64,000 nucleotides of DNA from Lentimicrobiaceae bacterium (GTDB lineage: Bacteria > Bacteroidota > Bacteroidia > Bacteroidales > P3), in contig JAFLTI010000006.1 of NCBI GenBank assembly GCA_022510485.1, forward strand, positions 7,577-71,576, in the 5' to 3' direction. The position numbers were made by a program, and so were the translations under genes. The notes under the pieces were generated by a model. That model did no database searches, was not told where the DNA came from, and saw only the letters and a list, made by a program, of their open reading frames with translations. Positions 30,015 through 31,418 of this stretch are shown here, in pieces (within the stretch, counting starts at the first letter, position 1; each line of letters opens with the position of its first letter).

Positions 30015-31418
30015 TTATCTTCGTTCCCAAAGAGAAGGATTTATCAAATCTTTCAATCTAAGATTAAACAATTTAAGCAGTTCATCCCGATGAGAATCAA
30101 AGCGGTTAAGCATATTGAGGCATGTTTGTAATGGTTTACATATCTTTATATTATCATAATATCCATTAGCCTTGTCCACAAGAAATTCATCGTATGATTT
30201 TAGATTTGGAATATCCGAACGTTTTAATACAGTCTGCTCCCAATAGGATTGATTTCGATATGAATACTCCCAAAAAGACATATACCTATAAAACTGTGGT
30301 TGATTGCACCATCTCGCTATTTGAACATAAATATTAGATAACTCATGTTTCTTATAATCTTCGTGTCGCATCACGTAACCAAAGCATCCGAACTGCATCA
30401 AGACTTTAATTCGCAAAAATAGTTCTTTTATATCTTTATACAATCGTTCATCATTGTTTGTCATCATATAACCGCAAAAGAGATAGAATTTGGTCTCTTT
30501 TTTAGGATTATATGATTTCCATATTTTCAAGGCTTTGATTATAATATCTTTATCTCGCCAATTATCAAAAGCAAAAATGTAATCACCATAGTATTTGCAT
30601 TTAGACAATTTTTCAGCAATCTCCTCTCCATATGGACTTTCTGCTAAAATGCGCTCATCTAAACCCTGTCTAAATTGAAATGGTCGTTTGGAATCTATAA
30701 GTTGCTGCAACATAGGTCTCCATATCTCTGGAGCTGCAGCTAAAAAATTGTCATCCCACAAATAAACGTAAGGTCTTATCAATTTGCCTTTATCGTCTTT
30801 CTCGTCATCTAAAAACCACTCTAATTCAGAGTATGCGTAAACAGTATTTTCTAGTTTGTTAATGCAAAAAGGGCAATGACGAATACAACCACGAGTTAAA
30901 AAACCAATGGAAAAATATCGATAATCTTTAAAGTATGATTCTTTACGGCCTTCAGCGATTTTACTTTGTATATATTCATCATAGAGATGATAATATGGCA
31001 TTTGTCGAGCCATATCTATACCTCTTATTTTTGCGCCACCACGTTTGTTGAGGAAGCGACAAAGGAACGGATCGTTTTCAAGTTGAGTCATATCTTTATC
31101 TCGTGCACATTTAAATCGGGAGATACTCCTCTCTACAGCATAATCTCCTGTACCTCCTATGTTAAATTTAGATTCGTTTTTTGTGCCGACAGATTTGATA
31201 TAAAGTTGAGGAGTGGGGGTAAAAGAGAAAACTTTCGATATATATATTTTTGAATATATCCCTACATCTTCATTATTATCGAGTATTAGTCTGAATTTTA
31301 TATTGTTATCATATAAAAAACCAGCAAGTTTGAGCAACGCAAGATTAGGGTGACGGGTTCCACCATTCATAAGATCTGCGTCCACTAACCCAATATATAT
31401 CTTCTGGCTTTTATTCAT
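30015..31418 (-). CDS. radical SAM protein with N-terminal Rossmann/B12-binding-like region
   Basis: CxxxCxxC motif in FLTRGCIRHCPFCINKLE; N-terminal IGLVDADLMNGGTRHPNLALLKLAGFLYDNN; TIM-barrel-like YLWDDNFLAA, FRQGLDERIL, FDNWRD. ATG at 31418 (ORF opens at 31439). Confidence 0.85.
   Translation of the reverse strand: MNKSQKIYIGLVDADLMNGGTRHPNLALLKLAGFLYDNNIKFRLILDNNEDVGIYSKIYISKVFSFTPTPQLYIKSVGTKNESKFNIGGTGDYAVERSISRFKCARDKDMTQLENDPFLCRFLNKRGGAKIRGIDMARQMPYYHLYDEYIQSKIAEGRKESYFKDYRYFSIGFLTRGCIRHCPFCINKLENTVYAYSELEWFLDDEKDDKGKLIRPYVYLWDDNFLAAAPEIWRPMLQQLIDSKRPFQFRQGLDERILAESPYGEEIAEKLSKCKYYGDYIFAFDNWRDKDIIIKALKIWKSYNPKKETKFYLFCGYMMTNNDERLYKDIKELFLRIKVLMQFGCFGYVMRHEDYKKHELSNIYVQIARWCNQPQFYRYMSFWEYSYRNQSYWEQTVLKRSDIPNLKSYDEFLVDKANGYYDNIKICKPLQTCLNMLNRFDSHRDELLKLFNLRLKDLINPSLWERR

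Follow-up and report, generated by a model that had tools for sequence, protein, structure and literature searches.

The operon and its surroundings

The window, by which we mean the whole stretch of 64,000 nucleotides analysed, carries a low-GC operon of four genes on the minus strand. The first gene (30015..31418; ATG at 31418, stop codon ending at 30015) is an intact, uninterrupted open reading frame for a radical-SAM protein of 467 aa, hereafter rSAM, which we propose to be a DNA-modification (self-mark) enzyme. It is followed after 9 bp by the gene of a 773-aa protein (27684..30005), and then by those of a DrmA-type helicase of 1368 aa (23591..27697) and a DrmB family protein (NF038324) of 700 aa, counted from the ATG at 23630 (21528..23630). 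The last two junctions overlap by 14 and 40 bp. The rSAM gene leads the operon, as a preliminary description of this DNA had stated.

The DrmA-type helicase has a Walker A motif GGGKT at residue 669 and DELH at 881; it scores 590 bits in PADLOC and 711 bits with NCBIfam NF038325, below the cut-off of 950. The DrmB protein reaches 181 bits in PADLOC and 280 bits with NF038324, above the cut-off of 240. The operon had also been called DISARM-like, a label that holds for the DrmA and DrmB neighbours but is partial. Like DISARM (DrmA, DrmB, DrmC, DrmMI/DrmMII, DrmD/DrmE), the window joins a DrmA helicase, a DrmB partner and a proposed modification gene in one operon, with the order of locus L143 (see below). 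Unlike DISARM, it has no methylase, no DrmC and no HMM-detectable DrmE, and rSAM stands in the modification slot. We found no match to a methylase, DrmMI/DrmMII included, among the operon genes with PADLOC, Pfam or NCBIfam, and none to the DrmE model NF038316 anywhere in the genome. DrmC, a PLD nuclease, is missing, as beyond DrmB come an unrelated plus-strand open reading frame and then rpe. The window operon also lacks the NERD-domain helicase of operons of the L025/L026 type.

The position of the 773-aa protein is that of DrmE in some DISARM-like operons. It has no significant match in Pfam, PADLOC or NCBIfam, and its AlphaFold model is too poor for use (pLDDT 53.7). With hhalign, its C-terminal stretch gives a weak local alignment to the DrmE family (E 0.03-0.07). 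Relatives are encoded at L010, L025, L026 and L117 (27-40% identical) and, more distantly, at L143; in relatives its gene adjoins those of the NERD helicase and DrmA, an arrangement that resembles the placement of DrmE in L149. These data are suggestive of a DrmE-like protein. A search for it in viral contigs yielded no confirmed member.

GC content is 33-41% along the operon stretch and 44-53% outside. On the upstream side of the operon, the low-GC island is bordered by the 3' end of a tRNA-Leu(taa) gene (32472..32557, minus strand). Low GC and a tRNA border fit a horizontal acquisition; tRNA-derived direct repeats flanking the island were not found, nor was a matching repeat at its far end. 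Between the tRNA and the operon lies a non-coding or decayed stretch (31700..32470, minus strand) with out-of-frame gene fragments at 31700-32190, which probably derive from a gene that has decayed. A phmmer search located a small helix-turn-helix open reading frame upstream of rSAM only in L026 (17 bp) and L116 (~1.5 kb), and none in the window. The proteins of L026 and L116 resemble controller proteins of restriction-modification systems.

The radical-SAM protein and its predicted structure

The motif CIRHCPFC of rSAM is a CX3CX2C motif at residues 178-185 (C178, C182 and C185), and it is invariant across all 37 aligned rows. The protein matches PHROG 9298, annotated 'radical SAM domain protein', with 113 bits; hence the motif is no chance occurrence. 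On the other hand, rSAM has no significant match in Pfam, PADLOC or NCBIfam, and searching the PDB sequences with the family profile gave no match at E 0.01. In particular, Pfam PF04055 did not match rSAM either in the protein scan or in a genome-wide search, which found 15 places elsewhere in the genome, and it matches the relatives of rSAM weakly. A match to PF04055 is a detection aid for the radical SAM superfamily rather than its defining feature.

Besides the three cluster cysteines, the residues invariant over the 37 rows include D13, D15, P24, N25, D222, N224, Q251, G252, D254, D285, C371 and N372. Cys371 is one of two extra conserved cysteines, the other being Cys345, kept in 34 of the 37 rows. 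The pair recalls the two-cysteine mechanism used by RlmN and Cfr, a resemblance that is only a lead. Phage proteins of PHROG 9298 belong to the same family by HMM and have the same core, including CX3CX2C, DxD and the CN pair at 371-372. Unlike the defence-associated clade described below, they are shorter, lacking its insert of about 60 aa and its C-terminal extension.

An AlphaFold model of rSAM, for which the alignment left out one row from the phages collection, is confident (pLDDT 93.3, pTM 0.89). Foldseek returned three significant matches in the PDB, namely OxsB (1.1e-5), MiaB (4.1e-5) and TokK (1.4e-4), and these point to a predicted N-terminal Rossmann domain of the B12 type followed by a radical-SAM barrel, the architecture that rSAM would have in common with OxsB and TokK (B12-fold radical-SAM enzymes) and with MiaB. 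As TM-scores are at most 0.46, at an identity of 10-13%, the matches fix the architecture and not the reaction. Unlike these proteins, rSAM has neither DxHxxG nor the N-terminal cysteines of MiaB. The DxHxxG cobalamin motif is absent from all 37 rows, so that the preliminary description was right in assigning a radical-SAM enzyme with a B12-type arm devoid of this motif. Since some cobalamin-dependent radical SAM members lack it, rSAM may nonetheless use cobalamin. No conserved cysteine precedes C178 in the 37 rows. The missing MiaB-type set of three N-terminal cysteines argues against a second cluster of that type, and we rated the methylthiotransferase reading low. A viperin reading was also rated low, in line with the earlier motif-based judgement: the motif is CIRHCPFC and not CNYxCxFC, and no PADLOC match was obtained. 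A reading as a spore photoproduct lyase was likewise considered and rated low.

Relatives of rSAM and their downstream modules

Twelve loci form a close clade, with rSAM proteins 54-71% identical (the window, L009-L014, L025-L027, L116 and L117). They come from a scan of genome_contigs (7 loci) and from further searches at the family and order levels, one locus belonging to the phages collection. The family is sparsely distributed: matches were present in only 8 of 190 genomes of the bacterial family, and only 3 of those 8 held close relatives. Searches of the classes to which L013 and the window belong gave no clade loci beyond the known ones. In all 12 loci, rSAM is the first gene and a restriction-type module lies directly downstream on the same strand, a count that includes loci showing only the first genes of the module because of a contig end or a decayed operon.

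We distinguished four types of module. The DrmAB (DISARM-like) type is found in the window, L025 and L026; L010, L116 and L117 have rSAM, the NERD-domain helicase and the 773-aa protein, and then a contig end or decay before DrmA. The DndFGH type is represented by L013, from an Akkermansia sp. MAG (DndF 303, DndG 138 and DndH 1061 bits), and the Pbe type by L014 (PbeA 694, PbeC 288 bits) and L027. The fourth type (L009, L011 and L012) has no system name in PADLOC. It comprises two ParB-like proteins, a small PD-(D/E)xK-like protein whose motif was assigned by visual inspection, a 'KYGEN' protein, and an SNF2 helicase that closely resembles ZorD/DpdE. Among 300 genomes of the phylum we found no such ParB-type module without rSAM; viral contigs gave only the locus already known. 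Two of the pairings recur in viral-contig loci whose rSAM proteins are just 35-37% identical: L032 is of the Pbe type (PbeA 724, PbeC 339 bits; PbeD matched weakly), and L035 is of the ParB/nuclease/SNF2 type.

Several further features of these operons were observed. In L009, L011, L012 and L035 the gene order is rSAM, ParB-like, PD-(D/E)xK-like, SNF2, ParB-like and 'KYGEN' protein. The latter contains a domain of about 200 aa with a 'KYGEN..K' motif that is common to the Pbe-type and ParB-type operons (L009:8074-9771, L035:15159-16325, L011:15259-15951, L014:5505-6200) and is sometimes fused to rSAM, as in the tails of the L027 and L032 proteins. In L009 and L035 it is fused to an S24 (LexA-like) peptidase. 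Its role may be to recognise the DNA mark or to control the system. In L025:14788-18871, DrmA is split over two overlapping open reading frames, and at L116:8147-8770 the homologue of the 773-aa protein is truncated; these copies appear to be undergoing decay or to reflect misassembly. In L012, genes for a C5 and a D12-type N6 methylase (L012:17914-19907) follow the operon at a distance of about 2 kb and probably constitute a separate restriction-modification system.

In a maximum-likelihood tree the 12 clade loci group together (support 100/100), and parsimony of module type on this tree requires at least five module changes. The DndFGH locus L013 nests among DISARM-type rows; its innermost fork is weak (84/27), and the surrounding group of four rows is supported at 100/99. 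These data indicate that rSAM is not tied to DISARM and that, as judged from the sequence comparisons, the cutting parts are interchangeable. The known DndFGH and PbeABCD restriction modules (CxC ABC-ATPase) are close systems as well: the rSAM family heads a complete DndFGH set (L013) and Pbe-type sets (L014, L027, L032). Unlike them, the rSAM-headed operons are devoid of DndC, and their proposed modification gene encodes a radical-SAM enzyme. No DndC was detected in the 11 genomes that carry rSAM. DndFGH is often present without the Dnd modification genes (PMC10853773), and for this reason the missing DndC in L013 proves little by itself. In the same report, radical SAM is mentioned only in the discussion of DndC (PMC10853773).

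A DNA methylase in the rSAM slot

We searched 349 genomes of the phylum for DrmA and inspected the neighbourhoods of the best matches. At L143, genes for a cytosine-5 DNA methyltransferase, a NERD helicase, a protein like the 773-aa protein, DrmA and DrmB follow one another on one strand. This is the gene order of L025 and L026, with the methyltransferase in the slot of rSAM. The methyltransferase has 568 aa and scores 95.8 bits with TIGR00675, slightly below the cut-off of 100.65. The NERD helicase is 36% identical to that of L025, and the 773-aa-like protein is a distant relative of its L025 counterpart (E 4e-10; 18% in the alignment). L149 has the order C5 methyltransferase, DrmE, NERD helicase, DrmA and DrmB. 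Since L143 holds a methylase where L025 and L026 hold rSAM, the simplest reading would be that the two are alternatives for one job, although the exact exchange is a single example, L143.

In DISARM this job is the marking of self DNA: in Serratia, unmethylated DNA stimulates the ATPase activity of DrmAB, and 5mC lowers it (PMC9142583). DISARM can also restrict phages without methylation sites (PMC9142583). For Pbe-type systems, it has already been reported that cytosine methylases can occupy the place of the phosphorothioation genes (PMC10853773).

Homologues in phages

Clustering of the rSAM proteins at 80% identity reduced 80 viral loci to 41 groups. A DNA-methylase motif was found within three genes of rSAM in 22 of the 41, compared with 29 of 536 background positions (5%; p ~1e-17), the background being the same test on genes elsewhere on these viral contigs. 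Methylases were called here by short motifs, and many of the phage loci are related despite the clustering. Pfam searches on representatives identified N6/N4 methylase (with a weak ParB_N match), C5 methylase and SAM-synthetase domains. In annotated phages the rSAM homologues likewise lie near DNA methylases. In addition, the orphan phage copy L034, which has no restriction module, shares 94% identity with the copy that L032 carries beside its Pbe genes. Such near-identity is as expected if phages protect their own DNA with rSAM, which is probably what the stand-alone copies do.

A cassette of SAM synthetase, ParB/DNA methylase, rSAM and C5 methylase recurs in the viral_contigs loci L046, L048-L051, L060, L102, L104 and L106, and lies near the terminase in several of them. 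Distant rSAM homologues also occur near PAPS-reductase-family proteins and DNA methyltransferases in L122 (a Trichlorobacter plasmid) and L120 (Bacteroides phage BKO1-TP3).

Proposed function

In our opinion rSAM is probably the modification (self-mark) enzyme of restriction-type systems with interchangeable cutting parts. It would generate a radical from SAM with the help of a 4Fe-4S cluster and place a mark on the DNA of its host, a base being the most likely site. DrmA and DrmB, together with the 773-aa protein, would scan DNA and act on DNA devoid of the mark. Members of the family would do the same job for DndFGH, PbeABCD and the ParB/nuclease/SNF2 modules, and the stand-alone copies of phages would shield phage DNA. 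Family membership, the operons, the exchange of modules, the occurrence of a methylase in the rSAM slot and the fold can be read directly from the sequences; we infer the substrate to be DNA and the mark to block restriction. The preliminary description had left the substrate open among DNA, RNA and a phage protein. Comparative evidence now favours DNA and self-marking, because a C5 methyltransferase occupies the slot at L143, four kinds of module are served, and phage homologues cluster with DNA methylases. The nearest solved folds also speak for this reading, as OxsB and MiaB act on nucleotides. As for the chemistry, methylation or some other change at a base carbon is the option we prefer, with odds well below even.

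Other readings have to be weighed against self-marking. The enzyme could make a modified nucleotide, as viperin does, or modify tRNA, rRNA or a protein, and the operon would use the product as effector or signal. Radical-SAM enzymes with nucleotide or RNA substrates are common, OxsB and MiaB are among the nearest folds, and no DNA-binding domain was identified in rSAM. However, a substrate other than DNA is hard to reconcile with the DNA methyltransferase of L143, with the pairing of rSAM with four kinds of DNA-restriction module and with phage homologues adjoining DNA methylases, and we regard it as unlikely. Prokaryotic viperins are, like the proposed rSAM, radical-SAM proteins of anti-phage defence; unlike them, rSAM is devoid of the viperin motif, and its gene has the operon context and the slot expected of a DNA-modification gene.

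Somewhat less improbable, although still doubtful, is that rSAM acts second, on a base already methylated or prepared by another enzyme, a reading that overlaps with the self-mark explanation. It would account for phage homologues adjoining C5 or N6/N4 methylases and SAM synthetase, but neither the window operon nor most defence operons of the clade encode a methylase, and the methylase of L143 replaces rSAM rather than joining it. Finally, rSAM might repair DNA or detoxify damage caused by the helicase or nuclease, with no self-mark involved. Spore photoproduct lyase provides a precedent, being a radical-SAM enzyme that acts on damaged DNA. No result obtained here points to repair, which would leave the one-for-one exchange with a methylase and the phage clustering with methylases unexplained, and we consider this reading highly improbable.

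To our knowledge, the self-marks of restriction-type systems all come from ordinary SAM-dependent methyltransferases, from the Dnd/Ssp sulphur machinery or from 7-deazaguanine insertion. Searches within an open-access library returned neither an account of this enzyme as part of a defence system nor one of this combination of genes. On the self-mark reading, rSAM alone might write a DNA mark not described before, by which at least four unrelated restriction modules would tell self from non-self, and so represent a new class of restriction-modification 'M' enzyme; we hold the evidence for this stronger proposal to be evenly balanced. If true, a radical-SAM writer would be a new self-mark chemistry, with access to carbon positions beyond the range of ordinary methylases. 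It would also account for the survival of hosts that carry DrmAB, DndFGH and Pbe operons, several of which have no methylase to prevent self-destruction, and would provide a function for PHROG 9298, whose annotation goes no further than its radical SAM domain.
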